Below, one piece after another: positions 7,100-25,566 of a stretch of DNA of 25,566 nt (the stretch's first letter is position 1; every line of letters starts with the position of its first letter). Source of the stretch: Acidobacteriota bacterium. Its GTDB lineage: Bacteria > Acidobacteriota > Terriglobia > UBA7540. The stretch spans positions 1 through 25,566 of the forward strand of contig PLWR01000302.1 in NCBI GenBank assembly GCA_003165615.1. The letters are read 5' to 3'. A program made the translations under genes and the position numbers. The notes beneath the pieces are model-generated. The model worked only from the letters and a program-made list of their open reading frames with translations. It did not search any database and was not told where the DNA came from.

Positions 7100-7628
7100 A
7101 TGAAGATCACAGGCGTCGAAGCGATTTACCTCCGTCAAACATTGGTAAAGGAACAGTGCGATAGCGGTCAGGATGCGCTGATCGTCAAAGTCACCATCGA
7201 TGCGGGGATCACTGGCATCGGGGAGGTTGACTCCTCGCTGGCGGCGGTGAAGGGAGGAGGAAAGCAACCGCCGCTCCTACCTGGATCTCATGGACCGGGG
7301 GAAAATCGATGTCGTGCAGATTGATCTGACACGTTGTGGTGGATTTACCGAGGCCGTTAAGATAGCCAGCCTTGCCCACGACCGCGGCCTAGTGGTGGCA
7401 AGCCACGGATTTTCAACCTACATCAACGTTGCGGCGGCGCTCCATTTCCTCAATGCCATTCCCAACACCCTGATCGTGGAGTTTGTCGCCGAAGAGGAAA
7501 CCACGCTGCGGGACAAGATCACCCGGCAGAGAATCCGTGCCGAAGATGGTTTCCTCAATATTCCAGATGCCCCCGGCTTGGGTACTGAACTCGATGAGGA
7601 AGAAGTAAGAAAACTGAGGATTGGCTAG
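7100..7628 (+). pseudogene. Enolase-superfamily sugar-acid dehydratase, internally deleted
   Basis: The first about 50 codons from ATG 7100 (GGAG 4 bases upstream) read as the N-terminal capping domain of a mandelate racemase/muconate lactonizing enzyme-type dehydratase, with [15 protein letters not shown] and [10 protein letters not shown]. Near 7250-7260 the homology jumps into another frame. It resumes as [28 protein letters not shown] and VVASHGFSTYINVAAALHF, to a stop at 7626-7628. This is the C-terminal part of the barrel. Family members run to about 380-400 residues, so some 200 are missing, including the catalytic lysine motif and the metal-binding Asp/Glu/Glu residues. The remainder cannot be functional. 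The intact enzyme would dehydrate an aldonic or uronic sugar acid. Confidence 0.8.
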
Positions 7629-7710: not shown

Positions 7711-8350
7711 ATGACGAACGGCCTTACTTCCTATCGCTTTTCATTTGGGTCCTGGAACCTCAGTGAAGGGGCTGATCCCTTTGGTCCCCCCGTGCGAGAC
7801 CCTTTCACCTTTGTGGAAAAGACGAAGATCGCCCAGCAACTGGGATTCGCCGCTTTACAATTCCACGATGATGATGCCGTGCCCGACCTTGATTTGCTCA
7901 GTCCGGCGGAGATAACCCGCCAAGCTCGTGCGACCCGGCAAATCCTTGCGGACCACGGACTGGCGGCGGAGTTCGTGGCGCCGCGCCTCTGGTTTAATCC
8001 CCACACGATTGATGGGGCTTACACCTCGAACAACCCAGCAGACCGCGCCTACGCATTGGAAAGGTCCATCAAAGCCATCGATATCGCCCACGAGTTGGGT
8101 TCGAACCTCCTGGTCCTGTGGTTAGCGCGCGAAGGAACATAGGTGCGCGAAGCCAAGTCGGTTCCCCATGCGCACACAGAAGAAGGAAGTCTCCGCGAGA
8201 CACCTCTCCAACAGCAAGCAGACCTTCCTCTGGCTGGTCGAAAAAGTGCGCAGCCCGAATCGCACCTTGCAGTCCGAGTTGGTGAAACAGCGGGATTACG
8301 AGGAGTTGACTCGCTACATCACCGCCCATTTGCTGGGGGTGGCCTACTAA
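7711..8350 (+). pseudogene. xylA: Xylose isomerase, internally deleted with a nonsense codon
   Basis: AGGAGG at 7701-7706 and ATG 7711 open a good N-terminus of an actinobacterial-type xylose isomerase: YRFSFGSWNLSEGADPFG, QFHDDDAVPDLDLL and EFVAPRLWFNPHTIDGAYTS. At 8140-8142 a TAG interrupts EGT-stop-VREAKS, where a tyrosine codon is expected. Shortly after, the central barrel is missing. In the +1 frame from 8168 the C-terminus resumes as MRTQKKEVSARHLSNSKQTF and LVKQRDYEELTRYITAHLLG, to a stop at 8348-8350. The family has about 390 residues and roughly 180 are lost, including most metal ligands. The intact enzyme interconverts xylose and xylulose, which would have supplied the kinase at 4360. 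It follows the decayed dehydratase by 82 bases. Confidence 0.8.
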
Positions 8351-12838: not shown

Positions 12839-13855
12839 ATGAGGCACAAGGTCTGCACGGTTGATTCAGGCCAATGGAACAATGGACTACAAATCGTTCG
12901 TCTTGAGAACGATCTGCTGTCGGTTGAGGTTTTCCCGCAGCTTGGCGCAAAGATCTGGAGCTTTGTTCACAAGCCTTCGGGAACCAACCTGCTTTGGCAC
13001 AATCCGCGCCTGGCGCCCGCGCCGGTCCATTACGGGGCAAAGTTCGACGACAACTGGCCGGGCGGCTGGGATGAACTGATTCCCACCGACGTTCCGTACA
13101 CGTTTCCCAATGGTGATGTCCTTCCCGACCACGGCGAAGTGTGGTCCCAATCCAGCGACTGGCAGGTGGTAAGCGAGACCGCCGACTCTGTTACCGTCAG
13201 CTTTGTAACCCAGGGTCGCGTGCTGCCCACGCGTTTTGAAAAAGCGCTCACCCTGCGGGCGGGAGAACCACTGCTGCGGGTGCGCTACGCATATATCAAT
13301 CAGGGGCCCAGGCCGATTCACTTCCTTTGGAACATTCATCCGCCACTCGCAGTCTCTCCCGCTACGCGCTTAGACGTCCCTGCTCAGCGCGGCATACTAG
13401 AGGCATGGATGAACGAGCAGTTTGAACCGGGGCTGGAATACGAGTGGCCTTACGCGCCGGATCGTAATGGCCGAAAAGTAGACCTTAGCGTTGTGCCCCC
13501 GGTGTCGGAAACGGTCGCTGACCATCACTATTTTCCCAATATCAAAGAGGGTTGGTATGCCGTTACCGACACCGGGAAGCGGGTGGGATTTGGAGTTTGC
13601 TTCCCCACCCAGGTTTTTCCACACCTCTGGATGTTCCGGACGATCGGGGGATGGCGCGGGCTGAATACACTGATCCTCGAAATCTCGAATGGGTATTCCA
13701 CGGATTTGAGGAAAGGGATCCAGCAAGGGCAATGTGGGATGGTTGCGCCGGGTGGAGCGATCCGGGCCGAGGTCCTGGCCATTGCCTATGCGGGGATTAC
13801 GCGAGTCGCGCGGATCGATCCGTCGGGCAAGGTCCATCCGCAGTCCGGGCAGTAG
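12839..13855 (+). CDS. Aldose 1-epimerase-fold protein (galactose mutarotase-like)
   Basis: About 338 residues from ATG 12839. A longer reading from 12752 exists, but its extra 29 residues precede the fold and no start has a good ribosome binding site. QIVRLENDLLSVEVFPQLGA is the usual first strand pair of mutarotase-fold proteins. LPDHGEVWSQSSDW, HFLWNIHPPLAV and TLILEISNGYSTDL supply two histidines and a glutamate placed like the mutarotase catalytic set. Members of this branch act on sugar anomers or remain uncharacterised. There is no signal peptide, so it is probably cytoplasmic. It lies between the receptor and a Tat-exported glycosidase, with only 34 bases to the latter, which suggests an operon. 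Confidence 0.75.
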   Translation: MRHKVCTVDSGQWNNGLQIVRLENDLLSVEVFPQLGAKIWSFVHKPSGTNLLWHNPRLAPAPVHYGAKFDDNWPGGWDELIPTDVPYTFPNGDVLPDHGEVWSQSSDWQVVSETADSVTVSFVTQGRVLPTRFEKALTLRAGEPLLRVRYAYINQGPRPIHFLWNIHPPLAVSPATRLDVPAQRGILEAWMNEQFEPGLEYEWPYAPDRNGRKVDLSVVPPVSETVADHHYFPNIKEGWYAVTDTGKRVGFGVCFPTQVFPHLWMFRTIGGWRGLNTLILEISNGYSTDLRKGIQQGQCGMVAPGGAIRAEVLAIAYAGITRVARIDPSGKVHPQSGQ

Positions 13856-13889
13856 CCATTTCGGCCGGGGTGAGGCTCCAAGGTTGACC

Positions 13890-15047
13890 ATGAGTGAAAA
13901 AAATCAAATCCCGCGCCTGCCGCCGCAACCGCATGATCTGCCGGTTGGCAGGGTCAGCCGACGTGACCTTCTGAAAGCGATATCCGCTGGGGGGTTGGCT
14001 GCCGCACTTGCTCCGGGGTCGTTGGGGACGGGCGCGAGAACTACAATTTCCGTGGAGTCCGACAAGTTCTTCATCAACGGAATCCCCACTTACCGCGGGC
14101 GCACGTATCAAGGAATGAAGATGGAAGGCCTTCTGATGAACTCGCGGATGGTGAACGGCATCTTCGACGACCTCAATCCGGCCACCCGCCCGTTCTGGAA
14201 TTATCCTGACACCGGAAAATGGGATCCGGAACGAAATACCCGCGAATTCGTCGCCGCCATGCCAGAGTGGCGCCGGCACGGTTTGCTCAGCTTCACGATT
14301 GACCTCCAAGGCGGAAATCCCCGCGGTTACACGCACGTACAACCCTGGGACAACAGCGCTTTCGACAGCCAGGGGGCGCTGCGCAAGGACTGCCTGCGCC
14401 GCCTTAAGCAGATCCTGGATGCGGCAAACCATCTGGGGATGGCGCCCATCCTGGGGTATTTCTACTTTGGGCAGGACCACCAGCTTCAGGATGAATCGGC
14501 CGTAAAGCGCGGGACAGAGGCGGCAACTTCCTGGGTCCTGCGCAATGGGTACCGGAACGTGATGATCGAAATCAGCAATGAGTGCGACGGGCGGTATCGC
14601 CACGACATCCTGCGGCCTGCCCGTGTTCACGAATTGATTCAATTGGTTCGGTCCATGACGTGGCGCGGTGAACGACTGCTGGCAGGCGCCAGTTTCTCAG
14701 GCAACAAGATTCCGACTGACAAGGTCGTGGCTGCCTCCGACTTCGTCCTGATCCATGGGAATGGTGTGGCGGATCCGGCCCGCATTACGGACATGGTTGA
14801 CCAGGTGCGCCGCCTTCCCAGCTATCGTGCCAAACCCATCCTGTTCAACGAAGATGACCATTATGATTTCGACAAACCCGACAACAACATGGTGGCCGCG
14901 GTGCGTGGATACGCATCATGGGGGTTGCTCGACATCGGGGAGAATAACTACCGGGATGGTTATCAGTCCCCGCCGGTTAACTGGTCCATAAATACCGGGC
15001 GCAAGCAGGCCTTTTTTGGACTGCTGCGCGAGATGACGGGTTCTTGA
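13890..15047 (+). CDS. Tat-exported glycoside hydrolase, clan A/GH5-like
   Basis: About 385 residues from ATG 13890 (AAGG 6 bases upstream). The open frame extends upstream, but that part overlaps the previous gene in another frame. Residues 20-45 carry a twin-arginine signal (VSRRDLLKAISAGGLAAAL), so the folded enzyme is exported. The body is a TIM barrel with NVMIEISNECDGRY near residue 225, the Asn-Glu acid/base pair of clan-A glycosidases. KPILFNEDDHYDFD near 320 is a plausible nucleophile strand. The polysaccharide substrate is not evident. The last 30 residues have a diverged second copy at 18027-18119, the remnant of another glycosidase gene. Next gene: beta-lactamase-fold hydrolase, 57 bases on. 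Confidence 0.78.
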   Translation: MSEKNQIPRLPPQPHDLPVGRVSRRDLLKAISAGGLAAALAPGSLGTGARTTISVESDKFFINGIPTYRGRTYQGMKMEGLLMNSRMVNGIFDDLNPATRPFWNYPDTGKWDPERNTREFVAAMPEWRRHGLLSFTIDLQGGNPRGYTHVQPWDNSAFDSQGALRKDCLRRLKQILDAANHLGMAPILGYFYFGQDHQLQDESAVKRGTEAATSWVLRNGYRNVMIEISNECDGRYRHDILRPARVHELIQLVRSMTWRGERLLAGASFSGNKIPTDKVVAASDFVLIHGNGVADPARITDMVDQVRRLPSYRAKPILFNEDDHYDFDKPDNNMVAAVRGYASWGLLDIGENNYRDGYQSPPVNWSINTGRKQAFFGLLREMTGS

Positions 15048-15104
15048 ACGGAACCCGCACCTGAGAGGGGCTGAAAAGAAGTACCATTGCTGTGGGAGAT
15101 GATC

Positions 15105-16316
15105 ATGAAAAGTAATCAGATTCGATGCGCCATCCTAAAGGTTGTTGCATTCTTGATGACCGGTGCGGCAGCGTCATTTGCCCAGTACTATCCGCCACCC
15201 GACAGTGCGGGGGGGTGGCGCACCCTCACGGCGCCCGGCGAAATTCGCGACAAAGCCGGCATGGATGTTAAGAAACTCGATGAGGCCTTTCAGTACATCC
15301 AAGGCTCCAGCCAAAACGGCGGCATGCTGGTGGTGCGGCATGGGTGGCTGATATATGAACGATACTTCGGCCGTGCCAACCGCGAGGCAACGCCCAATAC
15401 CATGTCCTGCGGCAAGTCCTTCACCAGTATTGCCGTCGGCATCCTCATGCATGAACGGCCCGATCTGTTCCCTCAAGGGCTCGATCAAAAAGTTTACTCG
15501 CCGCGTTACCTGCCTTCCGAAGCATTTCCGGTGAACGACCCCAGGAAAAGCCAGATCAAGCTTGGCCAACTGCTGGCCATGAGTGCGGGGCTGGCCGGAA
15601 ACAGCCCGGGGTCCATAAATAAGAAACCGGTCTCCATTGTTCCCGAGGGATTGGATGGCTGGCGGGCGATGGTCGAGCCCTGGGCGTTCACCGAGCGCCT
15701 GTGGTGCGACCCCGGCGGGGGGTATTCCTATGCCACCGTATCGCCCCAAATCCTTGCCGCCATGGTTCGTCATTTGACCGGCATGGAGCTGAAGGAATAC
15801 GTGGGATTGCACATTGGCAAGCCGCTGGATTGGGGACGTTGGGGTTATGATTTTCACGATCATCCGGAAATCAATCACACCCCCGGGGGCGGGGGCATCT
15901 GCGTGCGGGCAACGGATATGCTCCGTTTCGAATACCTTCTGCTGCATCACGGGAAGTGGGGGAGCCGGCAGATCGTGCCTGCGGACTATGTGCTGAAGGC
16001 GACCACCCCCTCCCCGTACAATCCCCACTATGCTTACAGCTTGCAGTTTGAGCTCAACTCCGACAGCGAAGCCTCCGCGGCGCCGCGCGATGCCTATTGG
16101 AAGCACGGGTTCGGTGGCTTTGCCATTTGCGTCGTCCCTTCGCTGGACCTGATTGTCTGGAAGATGGGAGGCCCTGACAACCAGTACGACGAGAAAGCCA
16201 CCGGATTACCCGAGATCCAACCCTATGGGGAACGCGCCGGATGGAAGCGAACCGAAGACGAGGATGCCTCAGCCTTGCGCATGCTGGAGATGGTGGTGGC
16301 GGCAGTGGCAAAGTAG
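15105..16316 (+). CDS. Secreted serine hydrolase of the beta-lactamase/PBP-C fold
   Basis: About 403 residues from ATG 15105, preceded by GGGAG at 15094-15098 with 6 bases spacing. ATG 15087 in the same frame lacks such a site. A signal peptide (ILKVVAFLMTGAAASFA, then QYYPPP) indicates export. NTMSCGKSFTSIAVG near residue 103 holds the SxxK nucleophile and base. GGYSYATVSP near 205 is the Y-x-N-equivalent region. KHGFGGFAICVVPS near 335 replaces the KTG motif with HGFGG, as in esterase and peptidase members. An esterase or amidase that trims substituted glycans fits the context, but this is inference. The reading frame ends 71 bases before a truncated isomerase start. Confidence 0.85.
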   Translation: MKSNQIRCAILKVVAFLMTGAAASFAQYYPPPDSAGGWRTLTAPGEIRDKAGMDVKKLDEAFQYIQGSSQNGGMLVVRHGWLIYERYFGRANREATPNTMSCGKSFTSIAVGILMHERPDLFPQGLDQKVYSPRYLPSEAFPVNDPRKSQIKLGQLLAMSAGLAGNSPGSINKKPVSIVPEGLDGWRAMVEPWAFTERLWCDPGGGYSYATVSPQILAAMVRHLTGMELKEYVGLHIGKPLDWGRWGYDFHDHPEINHTPGGGGICVRATDMLRFEYLLLHHGKWGSRQIVPADYVLKATTPSPYNPHYAYSLQFELNSDSEASAAPRDAYWKHGFGGFAICVVPSLDLIVWKMGGPDNQYDEKATGLPEIQPYGERAGWKRTEDEDASALRMLEMVVAAVAK

Positions 16317-16373: not shown

Positions 16374-16456
16374 GAACGAGGTGACGTATGAAACACGCAG
16401 TTATCGCGGGCTTTATGGGAAGGCTTCGAGACCGCTATCCCGAGTATTCCGGGGGC
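16374..16456 (+). repeat. Left direct repeat: 5' end of a sugar-isomerase gene
   Basis: These 83 bases repeat at 18173-18255 with an offset of 1799 bases. A core of 51 bases (16386-16436) is identical and only a few differences lie outside it. The repeat contains the ribosome binding site (GAGGTGA) and the first about 20 codons of the isomerase at 18187. Confidence 0.85.
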
Positions 16457-16465
16457 CTGGCCTAG
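16388..16465 (+). pseudogene. Truncated copy of the sugar isomerase, first codons only
   Basis: ATG 16388 with GAGGTGA upstream begins MKHAVIAGFMGRLRDR, identical to the intact isomerase at 18187. It then diverges (YPEYSGG) and stops at 16463-16465 after 25 codons. The end differs slightly from the intact gene at matching positions, so it could come from a paralogue rather than an exact duplicate. It sits where an isomerase gene would follow the beta-lactamase-fold gene in an operon. Confidence 0.75.
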
Positions 16466-16487
16466 GCCTGGCGCAGACATTAGTTAC

Positions 16488-16684
16488 TAGAAGCCATTTC
16501 AAAACCCTATGGAACCTATTGAAATAGTTAACCAAATCCGGGCTATCCGGAATGATGACCTAGGCCTTCGAGTTAAGTCCTTTATTTTCAGTATGGCCTT
16601 AATGCCTGCTTCTTCTAAATTGCGGATGATCACATCAACAGCCTTCATTTCAATGGACTACAGAGGGTTTTGAAATGGCTTCTA
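16488..16684. mobile_element. MITE-like element with 21-base terminal inverted repeats
   Basis: TAGAAGCCATTTCAAAACCC(T) at 16488-16508 is the exact reverse complement of 16664-16684. The ends include TA on both sides, compatible with a TA target duplication as made by IS630/Tc1-type transposases. The 197-base element has no transposase. The reverse strand holds an open stretch of about 50 codons beginning MKAVDVIIRNLEEAGIKAI, which I cannot assign. The right end lies 29 bases from the start codon of the gene at 16714. Confidence 0.7.
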
Positions 16685-16713
16685 CTGTCAATCGGACTCG
16701 ATGAGGTGAATTC

Positions 16714-17898
16714 TTGAGAGCAGGATTAACGCGACGCGAACTTCTTTTCGCCGGCGGCGCCAGCGTAACTGCGCTGGCGCTCCCCGCGCTTTCCTCGCCC
16801 AACCCGCCGTCACCCAATGCTCAGATTCAGAGAGTTCACCTCGGTGAACCCGTCCAGTGTCCGAAAAGCTCGGGAGATCTTTGGGCGGTGACCTGGGCGG
16901 ACGACGGGGAACTTTATGTTGCTTCCGACGACACTTCGGCGTTTGACGGTGTCTGTAACAGCAACTTGGCGATCAGTTGCCTCAAGGGGGAAGCGCCCGC
17001 CAGCCTCAGGTGCGTCACAGTCAACTGCATGAAGGAATACGGTGGTGGATCCGAGACCCAGCGAGAGGACGGCGGCATGTGGAAAGCCTGCGGTCTGATC
17101 TGCGTGGATGGCGTGCTCTACCTGTCCGTCAGCCGCCAGCTAGCGTGCCCCACTGAGCCTAACGGGACATGGGAGGGCTACTACAGCCCCTTTTGGATCC
17201 AGGAAACGTGGGACTCGAGCATCATAAAGTCGAACGACCACGGAAAGACCTGGAGCCCGATGCCTCAACTTGGACGCTCTATGTTTCCGGGCAGGGCGTT
17301 CAGCACGCCCTTCTTCGTACAGTATGGAAAGGATGGCCGAGGGACGAAGGATGGCGCCGACCAATACATCTACGCCGTGTCCAACGATGGAGCTTGGAAT
17401 AACGGCAACTGGATGATCCTAGGCCGAGTGCGCAAGGACCGTATCAGCCAGCTCAATCCGTCCGACTGGGAGTTTATCCATGGCTACGATGAACAGCATC
17501 TCCCCATCTGGCATCCTCGCTACGATAGCGCCCTTTACACTTTCCGCGCTCCCGGCCGCACCAGCATGACAGGCATCCATCACATTCCAGGGCTTGACCT
17601 CTACATCATGCCGCAGTGGTACTACCCTGATCTTGATGACCCCGCGCGGCGATTCAAGCACACCCGCGTGGAGTTCTACCAAGCGCCTGCCCCGTGGGGT
17701 CCATGGAGTTTGTTCCACACTCAGGACTTTGAACCTGAGAGTTGGTATAACCCGTGCATCCCAAACAAGTTTATTGGGGATGATGGAAAGCGCTTCTGGC
17801 TGTTCGTGGCGGGAGACTTCTTGGGCGCGGCAAGGCCCGCTAGGACTTACTACGGCCTGTGGATGATCCCAGTCACACTCGATGTTCAATCTGTATAA
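16714..17898 (+). CDS. Tat-exported beta-propeller-like protein (DUF4185/sialidase-like)
   Basis: 394 residues from TTG 16714, with GAGGTG at 16703-16708 and 5 bases spacing. The N-terminus LTRRELLFAGGASVTALALP is a twin-arginine signal. The mature part begins with SGDLWAVTWADDGELYVASDD and contains SIIKSNDHGKTWSPMPQ, an Asp-box-like S-x-D-x-G-x-T-W motif. IHHIPGLDLYIMPQWYY and FWLFVAGDF follow. Repeats of this kind occur in five- or six-bladed propellers such as DUF4185 and sialidase-like proteins. An extracellular carbohydrate-binding or glycosidase role is plausible but not shown. It lies inside the segment bounded by the direct repeats, so it may be a recent arrival. The MITE end is just upstream and could alter its expression. 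Confidence 0.7.
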   Translation: MRAGLTRRELLFAGGASVTALALPALSSPNPPSPNAQIQRVHLGEPVQCPKSSGDLWAVTWADDGELYVASDDTSAFDGVCNSNLAISCLKGEAPASLRCVTVNCMKEYGGGSETQREDGGMWKACGLICVDGVLYLSVSRQLACPTEPNGTWEGYYSPFWIQETWDSSIIKSNDHGKTWSPMPQLGRSMFPGRAFSTPFFVQYGKDGRGTKDGADQYIYAVSNDGAWNNGNWMILGRVRKDRISQLNPSDWEFIHGYDEQHLPIWHPRYDSALYTFRAPGRTSMTGIHHIPGLDLYIMPQWYYPDLDDPARRFKHTRVEFYQAPAPWGPWSLFHTQDFEPESWYNPCIPNKFIGDDGKRFWLFVAGDFLGAARPARTYYGLWMIPVTLDVQSV

Positions 17899-18023
17899 GC
17901 GGCGGTTGCCTGGTTAACCCTGGCGCATAAGCATCTACGGTCCAACTAATTTCATGCTCTTCGAGGGGATTACTGAGTATGGGATTGACAAAGCGACGCT
18001 CGAAATTGTTTTGATCCACAGGC

Positions 18024-18119
18024 TGGGATGGGTATCAATCCCTGCCGGTCAACTGGGGCATCGGCACCGAGCGCAAGAAGGACTTCTTCAAGATGTTGCA
18101 AGGAATCACACGTTCCTGA
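18024..18119 (+). pseudogene. C-terminal remnant of a second clan-A-like glycosidase
   Basis: The stretch reads DGYQSLPVNWGIGTERKKDF and on to ITRS-stop (18117-18119). It aligns without gaps to the last 30 residues of the glycosidase at 13890 (DGYQSPPVNWSINTGRKQAF...MTGS). The rest of the gene is missing upstream. The DNA is only moderately similar, so this is an old paralogue or a gene from another lineage rather than a fresh duplication. It sits 67 bases before the intact isomerase. Confidence 0.75.
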
Positions 18120-18172
18120 GCCGAGGAATGGCCACAGCCCCAGGCGAGGAATATGGGCAGATGACCCATACG

Positions 18173-18255
18173 GAATGAGGTGATGTATGAAACACGCAGT
18201 TATCGCGGGCTTTATGGGAAGGCTTCGAGACCGCTTTTGCGAGTATCCCGGGGCG
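18173..18255 (+). repeat. Right direct repeat: 5' end of the intact sugar isomerase
   Basis: This is the partner of the repeat at 16374-16456, 1799 bases away, and contains the ribosome binding site and first codons of the intact gene. Recombination between the copies would remove the propeller gene, the MITE and the glycosidase remnant, and would place the isomerase directly after the beta-lactamase-fold gene. Confidence 0.85.
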
Positions 18256-19228: not shown

Positions 19229-20035
19229 ATGAAATTAGGAACTACCAGTTATGCCTTTCGTTATCTCCTGGCGGACCCCCGGGGGGCCCCGTCATTGCGG
19301 CGAATCGTTGAATTGACAAAATCTTACGGCCTGGACAGGCTGCAGGTTTGCGAAAATGCACAGCCCACCAAGCTGCCCCACTCGGCTTGGAGGGATCTCA
19401 TCCAGTGTGCTGCCCAGGAGGGGGTGGAGCTTCAACTTGGATGCAAGACCTTGAACATTGAAACGCTGAAAGCCCACCTTGAACGCGTCGCCGGCACATT
19501 GAACAAGACTCTGAGAATTGTCCTGGAGGAAGATGGTGAACCCCCTCCAACGCGTTCGCGGCTGGAAACGTTTCTGGAACGAGCTGCCCCCCTGCTGGAA
19601 AAAGCGGCGTCGAAACTGGCGATTGAGAACTACTTCGCCATCCCTTCTCACGTCTTGGCGGAAATCGTTGGGCCTTACCCATCGTCATCGGTGGGGTTCT
19701 GTGTGGACACGGCAAACTCTTTGCGGAAATTCGAGCCTTCGGAGTATGTATTAAAGTTATTAGGGTCGCGGGCTTTTTGTTACCATATTAAGGATTACAA
19801 AGTCGCAGGGGACAACGTCGGGTTCTCAGTAGGGGGAGCGCCGCTGGGGAAGGGTGATCTGGCGCTGGATAAGTTCCTCGACGCCGTATTCGCCCGCAAT
19901 CCTTCGCCCGAGTTCTTCTTGGAAAACTGGGTGCCCGCTACTGGACGGCGGGAAACCGATGTGGAGGCTGATGCCCTCTGGCTTCAGGAATCTCTCTTGA
20001 ACCTTCGGGAACGATTGAGCCACAGGGGGGTATGA
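19229..20035 (+). CDS. Sugar phosphate isomerase/epimerase, second TIM barrel
   Basis: 268 residues from ATG 19229, with AAAGGG about 7 bases upstream. The first strand MKLGTTSYAFRYLL is typical of the superfamily. KLAIENYFAIPS, VGFCVDTANSLRKFEP, FCYHIKDYKVAG and FFLENWVPATGR give Glu, Asp, His and Glu metal ligands in order, so an active divalent-metal isomerase or epimerase is expected. It is more distant from the gene at 18187 than a tandem duplicate would be. The substrate is not evident. The GntR-regulator reading frame starts within 16 to 134 bases downstream, which suggests cotranscription. Confidence 0.82.
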   Translation: MKLGTTSYAFRYLLADPRGAPSLRRIVELTKSYGLDRLQVCENAQPTKLPHSAWRDLIQCAAQEGVELQLGCKTLNIETLKAHLERVAGTLNKTLRIVLEEDGEPPPTRSRLETFLERAAPLLEKAASKLAIENYFAIPSHVLAEIVGPYPSSSVGFCVDTANSLRKFEPSEYVLKLLGSRAFCYHIKDYKVAGDNVGFSVGGAPLGKGDLALDKFLDAVFARNPSPEFFLENWVPATGRRETDVEADALWLQESLLNLRERLSHRGV

Positions 20036-20921: not shown

Positions 20922-22157
20922 ATGAAGCGCTACCTTGTCCTCGTCGCGCTCTTCTTCCTCGCGTTGATAGCTTACGTCGACCGGGCGTGCATCTCCTCAA
21001 CCAAGGAGCCGCTGGCCCACGCGCTAGCACTTTCCGACAGTGCCATGGGGCTGGTTTTCGGGGCCTTCGCCCTGGGCTATGCCCTCGCCCAAATCCCCGC
21101 CGGGTGGTTCGCCGATAAAACCGGCCCCCGCCTCACCCTGGTATTGATTGTTTCGCTTTGGAGCGTTCTGACCACAATGACCGGGGCCTCCTTGGGCTTA
21201 TTGATGTTGTTAACAGTACGCTTTCTGGTCGGAGTTGCCGAGGCCGGCGTCTTCCCCAGCTCCGCTCGCGCCATTTACAACTGGTTACCCAAGAAAGAGC
21301 GTGGATTGGCAAACGGCGTTGTCTTTTCAGGCTCCAGGATTGGTGCTGCACTGGCTTTTCCCTTGCTTGCCTATTTGCTGAAAAGTTTGTCGTGGAGAGT
21401 GATCTTCGGCTTGTTGGGCGCCTTGGGGTTGTCGTGGGTGGGTCTTTGGACCCTCTTCTCTCGAAACCTGCCCGGGCAAGCTCACACGGAACTTGGCGGC
21501 ATAGCGGCTTCAGGAGCACCGAAGGTATTTGGGCAGATTCTTCGATCCCGGCGAATGGCACTCACCATGACCCAGTATTTTGCCAGTAATTTCACATTTT
21601 TTATCGCTCTCTCCTGGATGTATCCGTATCTGAAGAGTCACTATTCGCTCTCAAGCTCTCAGGCTGCCACATTTACGATGTTTCCCCTCCTTTTTGGAGC
21701 TTCGGCCCAATGGCTATCGGGTTTCCTGGTGGACTTTCTCTACCGTCACAATTTTGGCGCGCAATCGCGCCGCTTGCCCGCCATAGCCGGTTTTCTACTT
21801 TCGGCCTGTGCCGTGCTTGCCGTGACGCAAGCCGGCAGCGCACTGGAGGCGGAATTCTGGTTTTGTCTAAGTACGTTTGGGTGTGAGATGACCATTAGCC
21901 CAAGCTGGGCATATTGCATCGATATGGGCAAAGCTGCTTCAGGTGTTGTTTCAGCGTCAATGAACATGGCTGGGAACCTGGGCGCATTCGTAAGCGCCAA
22001 CGCCTTCCCATTACTGCAACACCTGGCCGGCAATTCTAGCGCGTTTTTCAAAACTGCGGCATTTCTCGACGCGGTCGCGATCTTTTGTTGGTTCTGGATG
22101 CAACCAGAAAAGCGGTCTCGCAACGGTGAAGAGCCAGATTCTGTTTTCGCTTCCTAG
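20922..22157 (+). CDS. MFS transporter of the anion:cation symporter family (ExuT/DgoT-like)
   Basis: 411 residues, about twelve hydrophobic segments, inner membrane. The first segment YLVLVALFFLALIAYVDRAC has the conserved Y-x-D-R motif. ALGYALAQIPAGWFADKTGPR is the MFS signature loop between segments 2 and 3. RFLVGVAEAGVFPSSARAIY is the ACS hallmark in segment 4. This group carries hexuronates, galactonate, glucarate or phthalate with protons or sodium. The regulator just upstream (57 bases) and the sugar isomerases support a sugar-acid substrate. No Shine-Dalgarno sequence is visible before ATG 20922, so translation may depend on coupling or the start may differ. Confidence 0.87.
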   Translation: MKRYLVLVALFFLALIAYVDRACISSTKEPLAHALALSDSAMGLVFGAFALGYALAQIPAGWFADKTGPRLTLVLIVSLWSVLTTMTGASLGLLMLLTVRFLVGVAEAGVFPSSARAIYNWLPKKERGLANGVVFSGSRIGAALAFPLLAYLLKSLSWRVIFGLLGALGLSWVGLWTLFSRNLPGQAHTELGGIAASGAPKVFGQILRSRRMALTMTQYFASNFTFFIALSWMYPYLKSHYSLSSSQAATFTMFPLLFGASAQWLSGFLVDFLYRHNFGAQSRRLPAIAGFLLSACAVLAVTQAGSALEAEFWFCLSTFGCEMTISPSWAYCIDMGKAASGVVSASMNMAGNLGAFVSANAFPLLQHLAGNSSAFFKTAAFLDAVAIFCWFWMQPEKRSRNGEEPDSVFAS

Positions 22158-23716: not shown

Positions 23717-24526
23717 TTAGGTGCTGGCGCGCGGTTGAAATTCGAACTTCGGCGAAGGTGGAATTTCATCGTGCAAGAGTTTATCGAACAGCGAGTTGCG
23801 CTCATCGAGTCCTCCCCATGCAGCCGACCGGTGGAGGACGGTTCGGCGGCCCGCACGCCCCAGAATGGCCCCACAGAGGAACACTTGCGCGCGCAGCGTG
23901 GCGGGCTGTCGATAGCCGCTCATGGCGCTGGCACGCTGGAATTCTCCGAGCAGGTTGAAGAGCATCAGAATGCCCAGGAAGGCAGCCTCGGTGGCGAAGA
24001 ACTCGCGCAGGCAGAAATCATCCGCAGCCAGGTCCGACTTCAACTCTTCAATGCGTTGCTCGATGCACGCGCGCTGGTTGTAGTCGCGCCCGATCTCCTC
24101 CGGCGCCTCCGATCGGTTGGTCACGAACACCCGAAAGGTGTAACCGGGAACTTCCAACAGCTTCCGCCCCAGCGAGCGCCTCGTCTCGCGCACCTGCTCC
24201 CGCACCACCACAAAGCGTCGTTCCCGATCCCACCCCAAGAGCTTCAGCCGGAACTCGCCCACCGCGTAGGTCTCGTCCAGCGCCCGCCAGGTTTGCACCC
24301 GCGCCGCCTCCCGCTTCAGCCACTTCGTCAGGCGGCCCACCACGATGTAGTGCAACTCCCAACCCTCCAGGTATTGCAACAACTCTTGCGCGCAGAACCC
24401 GGAGTCGGCACGCACCACCCGAATCCACTGCCGACTTTCCAGTTTCGCCAGCGCTTCCTTCAGAAACTCCACCACCCCGCTGTCGGACCGCGTGTTCCCG
24501 CTCCGTTTGTGTCTAACCAACTTCAA
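23717..24526 (-). pseudogene. IS1380-family transposase, 5'-truncated
   Basis: About 269 residues remain of a transposase that is usually about 420-450. VVRADSGFCAQELLQYLEG contains the second catalytic Asp. YNQRACIEQRIEELKSDLAA and FFATEAAFLGILMLFNLLGE contain the catalytic Glu and the typical helix after it. The upstream part with the first Asp is missing: homology begins near RSGNTRSDSGVVEFLKE at the right edge (about 24515), and the sequence beyond is unrelated. The element is therefore dead by itself. It is back to back with the IS66 scrap, and both are read leftward. Confidence 0.8.
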
Positions 24527-24990: not shown

Positions 24991-25566
24991 ATGAGATTCC
25001 GCAGAACGCTGACATTCCTCATTCTGGCGATGGCGTTGCTCTTTGCCCTGCCTGCCGGAGCGCAGCCGGAGGTAGCGCCGGGCTTTAGCCCGGCACATGC
25101 GGATGTAGCGCCGACCTTTAGGTCGGCACGTGCTGACGTAGCGGCGAGTTTACCTCGCCATGGCGGCGTAAAGCCGCCGCTACGGTATGCCGCCTTCCAG
25201 GACGGCGCTACAATGCCGGGGGGAACCAATCCCGGCATCGCCGGGAGCCCGGCAAAGCCCTTCACCCAGGAGCAGGTCGTAAGCATGGTGCGCGCCGGGC
25301 TTGAGCCCGGCACGGAACGTAGCGCCGACCTTCAGGTCGGCACATGCTGACCTGAAGGTCAGCGCTACAACACCCTCGCCCGAGCCCGCCAGCGCCAAGA
25401 AGCCGCTGAACCAAGTGCAGGTTTTCGCCCTGCTGGCGGGCGGCGTGCCGAGCCATCGAGTCACCATGCTGGTCGAGGAACGCGGAATCGATTTTGAGCC
25501 CACGGATGACTACCTTCAGGAAGTCCGTTTGGCCGGCGGCTTCCTAGAAATCCATCCGAGAACCTG
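24991..25566 (+). pseudogene. Exported protein gene broken by REP-like palindromes, runs off the window
   Basis: ATG 24991 (GAGG 5 bases upstream) begins MRFRRTLTFLILAMALLFAL-PAGAQ, a clean signal peptide. The frame then runs through GTAGCGCC-type palindromes. It shows KPFTQEQVVSMVRAG (about 25255-25299) and stops at 25348-25350 inside the last palindrome pair. In the +1 frame, coding-like sequence resumes with KKPLNQVQVFALLAGGVPSH, RVTMLVEERGIDFEPTDDYL and the window end. The two segments look like repeats of one small domain. A REP insertion probably shifted the frame; alternatively the second part is a separate gene, or an assembly error is involved. The function of this domain is unknown to me. 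Confidence 0.5.
25072..25368. repeat. Cluster of REP-like palindromes
   Basis: Several related units are present. GCCGGGC-TTTA-GCCCGGC is at 25077-25094, GCCGACC-TTTA-GGTCGGC at 25110-25127, and a GGCGAG/GGCGGC pair at 25138-25183. ATGCCGGG/CCCGGCAT is at 25213-25238, and GCCGGGC-TTGA-GCCCGGC at 25294-25311. A 50-base double palindrome bounded by GTAGCGC and GCGCTAC is at 25319-25368. They share the GTAGCGCC lead and look like mobile REP-type units that entered a coding region. Confidence 0.8.

Follow-up and report, generated by a model that had tools for sequence, protein, structure and literature searches.

How did the start of an isomerase gene come to stand twice in one locus of an Acidobacteriota bacterium, first as a short fragment and then in front of the intact gene? 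The window, i.e. the whole stretch of DNA that was analysed, comprises 25,566 nucleotides (positions 1 to 25,566 of contig PLWR01000302.1). The initial annotation regarded the segment between the two starts as a module inserted or duplicated by homologous recombination, and suggested that glycan-degradation cassettes shuffle through shared isomerase starts.

Layout of the locus

On the plus strand, the features of the locus follow each other in this order:

13869-15047, plus strand: GH1, a glycosidase-like gene (open reading frame 13734-15047, later start likely)
15087-16316, plus strand: beta-lactamase-fold serine hydrolase gene (PF00144, E 5.8e-22)
16374-16454, plus strand: repeat copy A, with the ribosome binding site and first 22 isomerase codons
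16488-16684, no strand: MITE-like element of 197 bp with 38-nt terminal inverted repeats
16714-17898, plus strand: propeller gene, intact, DUF4185/GH183-like (PF13810 below threshold; predicted model near 8ic1)
18025-18124, plus strand: 3' remnant of GH2, a second glycosidase-like gene (70% DNA identity to 14953-15052)
18173-18253, plus strand: repeat copy B, which opens the intact isomerase with its ribosome binding site and first 22 codons
18187-19173, plus strand: xylose-isomerase-like TIM-barrel gene, intact, 328 aa (PF01261, E 1.9e-24)
19229-20035, plus strand: TIM2, a second TIM-barrel gene (PF01261), which neighbours the isomerase in relatives
Between TIM2 and the MFS gene in gene order: GntR regulator
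20922-22157, plus strand: MFS transporter (PF07690), which neighbours the isomerase in relatives

The isomerase had 1954 homologues among the 7999 sequences scored, of which 120 were listed, and its closest solved chain by sequence was 3ktc. The upstream beta-lactamase-fold gene of the initial annotation is borne out by the PF00144 match. Known RNA families gave no Rfam match at the gathering score.

Structure of the repeat pair

A repeat search of the window yielded copies A and B as direct repeats of 81 nt each, with a start-to-start spacing of 1799 bases. They are identical at 75 of the 81 bases (93%), and their longest shared exact run is 51 nt, while simulated first-order Markov sequences matched in length and composition (n = 50) had longest exact repeats of 13-17 nt. 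The repeat is real, with a length far beyond chance. The earlier description of two 83-base repeats was accurate in its identical run of 51 bases and its distance of 1799 bases, but the length is 81 bases here. Both copies contain GAGGTGA followed by ATG (at 16388 in copy A and at 18187 in copy B), in agreement with the claim that each repeat carries the ribosome binding site and first codons of the isomerase. The proposed looping-out geometry is also correct, as a crossover between A and B would remove 1799 bases and leave the beta-lactamase-fold gene followed by the isomerase.

The six mismatches are located at positions 16377, 16385, 16437, 16439, 16440 and 16448, all of them outside the central 51 bases. 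If six mismatches were placed randomly in 81 positions, a clean run of at least 51 would be expected with P ~0.013, an approximate value because the repeat ends were picked by the aligner. Mismatches flanking a clean core on both sides are compatible with crossover or gene conversion. This pattern would be expected from a crossover inside the core, and the segment is bounded at both ends by direct repeats, as a Campbell-type insertion would require and leave behind. In such an insertion, a donor with the propeller gene, the GH2 tail and an isomerase start would have entered an operon of GH1, beta-lactamase-fold gene and isomerase by a single homologous crossover in the isomerase start, leaving the common 81 bases on either side of the insert. 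We consider this origin unlikely on balance, although it is the strongest competitor of the account given below.

Imperfect direct repeats of a gene's 5' end are also left by dusA-specific genomic islands, according to the available part of one report (PMC4482086). As in those islands, one of the two copies here serves an intact gene, and the repeats could be the two attachment sites of an integrative element, inserted in the isomerase 5' end and rebuilding the gene, since dusA-specific islands are described there as leaving imperfect gene-start repeats together with new 5' sequence. However, compared with what that part of the report describes, our segment shows no integrase, is far smaller at just 1.8 kb and has a decayed copy A, which would leave general recombination at most. 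The only open reading frame of the segment above 160 aa is the propeller gene, which had no PHROG hit, and the next (156 aa) runs opposite to it. With no integrase among the open reading frames above 160 aa and little room for one elsewhere in the segment, a site-specific integrative element was rejected, and we regard an attachment-site pair as extremely improbable.

Copy A as a decayed isomerase stub

The reading frame of copy A runs from ATG 16388 over 25 codons to a TAG at 16463-16465, against 328 aa for the intact isomerase. Two of its differences from copy B lie upstream of the ATG, and the other four fall in three codons, each of which thereby encodes another amino acid. Among the 114 readable sequences of the 120 listed homologues, 113 have Phe where copy A has Tyr, and 111 have Cys where copy A has Pro; Tyr and Pro occurred in none of them at these places. 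Copy B agrees with the isomerase family at the residues where copy A deviates. Hence, from its early stop and its three amino-acid changes in three changed codons, two of them at near-invariant residues, copy A looks like a decayed isomerase stub. It shows the features of a pseudogene, namely homology to an intact gene, an early end of the frame and relaxed constraint, the last by a weak test, as three changed codons are few.

Partial gene duplication and deletion leave pseudogene relics. Copy A is similar to such relics in that it is a 5' piece, cut short and mutated, in the vicinity of a complete paralogue, in a window where other genes are reduced too. The upstream neighbours of copies A and B differ, which sets the locus apart from a simple tandem duplication of a single block. 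A start of 16 residues, MKHAVIAGFMGRLRDR, is common to A, B and P0001, an isomerase from other metagenome data that is 96% identical to that of the window, and differs from the ten commonest homologue starts, which indicates that A and B are recent copies. The stub is genuine but ordinary.

The near-identical P0001 also implies that sister strains exist, so that two strains or genomic copies might have been joined at their shared isomerase start during assembly. As copy A is mutated and has an early stop, it is neither a perfect nor a strain-like copy, and we consider such an artefact improbable. Still less credible is a regulatory role of copy A in the operon, whether as a short upstream frame that is functional or as a reserve site for ribosome binding. 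Its ribosome binding site and 25-codon frame do exist, but all changed codons alter the peptide, the MITE-like element and a 1.2-kb gene separate copy A from the isomerase, and a separate start fragment was found in none of the seven relatives read (0/7).

Two glycosidase-like genes

GH1 gave no Pfam match and no PDB sequence match. Its predicted model (mean pLDDT 82.8) resembles TIM-barrel glycosidases, with 4n0r at the top (TM about 0.5), and the label 'glycosidase-like' is supported by this prediction at the fold level only. The GH2 remnant comprises the last 30 codons of the gene, with the TGA at 18117-18119, followed by a few further bases. Each isomerase start is preceded by a glycosidase: in the case of copy A by GH1, with the beta-lactamase-fold gene in between, and in the case of copy B by the GH2 tail.

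Identity is 70% between the glycosidase tails but 93% between the isomerase starts. Tandem duplication of a complete cassette in one step is therefore at odds with the data, and the mismatch calls for later copying of the isomerase, gene conversion, or recombination with a donor through a crossover in the isomerase start.

For two pairs of isomerase and GH1 homologues the longest contig was equal (P0003/P0243, 19607; P0005/P0322, 25232), and the isomerases P0003 and P0005 are 78-79% identical to that of the window. A GH1-type gene and the isomerase may therefore occur together in nearer relatives, which fits an insertion and the account given below alike. In a locus titled Bacillota (L041:162-9205), an isomerase with 44% identity was accompanied by two glycosidase-like genes with 58% and 34% identity to GH1, so that the partnership of isomerase and glycosidase may extend beyond this group.

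The isomerase locus in relatives

Relatives were reached from locus L020, which led to the isomerase of genome G944 (64%) and from there to six of the 237 genomes of its family. In total, seven loci were read (L066 and L074-L079, several of them on short contigs), with isomerases 55-66% identical to that of the window. Among 396 genomes of the phylum, only the centre of the genome search itself matched the isomerase at E <= 1e-90, and further samples of 298, 8 and 14 genomes gave no match. The 399 genomes of the class gave one isomerase match, and a glycosidase search of 99 genomes also gave one match. These genome samples overlap and are not independent. Plasmid or viral carriage is unsupported, as no relative turned up in searches of plasmid and viral sequences.

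Three loci (L074, L075 and L077) carry a GH1-kind glycosidase (35-38% identity) whose end either lies 7-10 bases short of the isomerase start or overlaps it. A glycosidase thus stands directly 5' of the isomerase in three of the six loci with a readable upstream region, and is absent there in L066, which has a divergent gene upstream, and in L078 and L079, which have an outer-membrane receptor gene; L076, with 273 bases upstream, was left out of this count. The MFS gene was found in six of the seven stretches, five times near the isomerase and in its orientation. TIM2 was found in five. In none of the seven loci was the beta-lactamase-fold gene or the propeller gene matched. These counts indicate that isomerase, MFS transporter and TIM2 form a lasting core with a frequent upstream glycosidase, and suggest that the beta-lactamase-fold and propeller genes are accessory.

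The glycosidases of the relatives bear on an insertion in two ways. Their presence before the isomerase in half of the readable loci argues against it. Conversely, sequence comparison leaves it doubtful that they are the gene behind the GH2 remnant, which favours it: the tails in L074 and L075 scored 96 and 106 to GH1 vs 64 and 66 to the remnant, and both glycosidases extend for ~110 residues that the remnant lacks.

The propeller gene and the MITE-like element

The predicted model of the propeller (mean pLDDT 86.2) was closest to the endo-alpha-D-arabinanase 8ic1 (TM 0.58), which we take to be a member of GH183. The protein is only 14% identical to 8ic1, and its PF13810 (DUF4185) score of 30 bits stays below the curated cut-off of 39.5 bits. 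Enzymes of DUF4185/GH183 are described as endo-D-arabinanases in the available parts of two reports (PMC10115798, PMC10509167). The model and the weak DUF4185 match make the propeller similar to these enzymes, while its low identity and sub-threshold score set it apart, so that such an activity is only predicted.

Among 2878 candidates, 386 were homologues of the propeller, and several of them were 76-78% identical over 92-100% of its length. In the family with isomerase carriers (six of 237 genomes), no genome matched the propeller in a search without a positive control. Accordingly, the propeller does not look like a member of the conserved gene set, and its absence from these genomes and from the seven isomerase loci favours an insertion. 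A search for the DUF4185 family matched none of four genomes, but none of 14 controls either.

The arms of the MITE-like element (16488-16525 and 16647-16684; 38 nt) are 87% complementary, and its GC content is 0.41 vs 0.56 for the window. It opens and closes with TA and encodes no transposase. The TA may be a target duplication, although it also belongs to the arms. Sixteen bases of the element's end had no exact match in 79 loci, and the element gave no match in plasmids. The 16 bases were present in 54 viral-contig stretches, the best five of which had no inverted partner within 3 kb. Relatives of the element on viral contigs (matches of 26-27 bases in five loci) were rejected: four of the five share an identical flank, and one of the five (L086) is a phage gene. 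Thus, of the contents first described for the segment, the propeller, the 38-nt inverted repeat and the glycosidase tail were recovered, but the mobility of a MITE was not, as no further copy was found in the 79 loci or in plasmids. Within the element, 49 open codons on the minus strand (16499-16648) are possibly a gene relic.

Proposed exchange through isomerase starts

The general claim that cassettes shuffle via shared isomerase starts was not upheld. A second copy of the locus's own isomerase start was found in none of 44 distant loci (L001-L043 and L052 out of 60, several on short contigs; the other 16, 27-36% identical, were omitted) and in one of the seven nearer loci, where it is the complete tandem isomerase of L077, a whole gene. 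Literature searches on partial gene duplications or cassette recombination yielded no papers. It would be very improbable, in our judgement, that isomerase starts act as homology patches at which upstream enzyme genes are traded, with this locus caught between two exchanges. If true, exchange via gene starts would offer a simple rule for the mixing of sugar-use clusters, for which one decayed stub is insufficient.

The narrower claim of an insertion by homologous recombination fared better. The direct repeats and the restricted occurrence of the propeller make it possible at this locus, against which stand the decay of copy A and the upstream glycosidases of the relatives. Furthermore, the donor must already have held a 22-codon isomerase start between a glycosidase and the MITE-like element, and such a start fragment was found in none of the 44 and seven loci. 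The empty site that an insertion predicts was not among the relatives' loci read, whose isomerases are at most 66% identical to that of the window.

Origin of the locus

The likeliest reading, which we hold with about as much confidence as doubt, is that the locus is the scar of two neighbouring glycosidase-isomerase cassettes from which redundant parts were lost. The first would have consisted of GH1, the beta-lactamase-fold gene and isomerase A, and the second of GH2, isomerase B, TIM2, GntR and MFS genes, perhaps with the propeller. Once the cassettes had become neighbours, two isomerases would have been present and one of them redundant. Deletions next to the MITE-like element and the propeller gene, with whatever part, if any, the element may have played in them, would then have left nothing of isomerase A but the ribosome binding site with the 22 initial codons, and of GH2 only the 30 terminal codons. 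Copy A and GH2 would accordingly once have been whole at this locus; neither a whole isomerase A nor a whole GH2 was found at this place in the relatives read.

Several results support this scar of two cassettes: the remnants themselves, the decayed copy A, the glycosidase before the isomerase in some relatives, and the tandem isomerases of L077, which are 65% and 48% identical to that of the window. Two other reduced sugar genes in the window (7290-7628 and 7711-8142) are also counted in its favour. Against it, two separate truncations must be assumed, the glycosidase tails of L074 and L075 are nearer to GH1 than to the GH2 remnant, and the tails of the locus are much less similar than its isomerase starts.

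Elsewhere in the window, 7290-7628 matches the C-terminal part only of the enolase-type MR_MLE_C (profile positions 116-218 of 219), and this gene may once have started in the open frame from 7100, with 7100-7249 giving no Pfam match. The 143 codons of 7711-8142 match the start of PF01261 only, at 28.6 bits vs a cut-off of 31.1 bits, and this gene may formerly have ended in the open stretch 8168-8350 (8168-8347 without Pfam match). On the minus strand, 23717-24526 is a transposase fragment, apparently without its N-terminal part (PF13701, profile positions 188-423 of 435). Near the window end, short direct and inverted repeats cluster inside an open frame (25058-25369).

If the scar of two cassettes is the correct reading, the repeat would be a relic rather than a working recombination site, although a crossover could still drop the 1799 bases at a low rate. 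The locus would then be a clear fossil of the rebuilding of a glycosidase-isomerase operon by duplication and loss.
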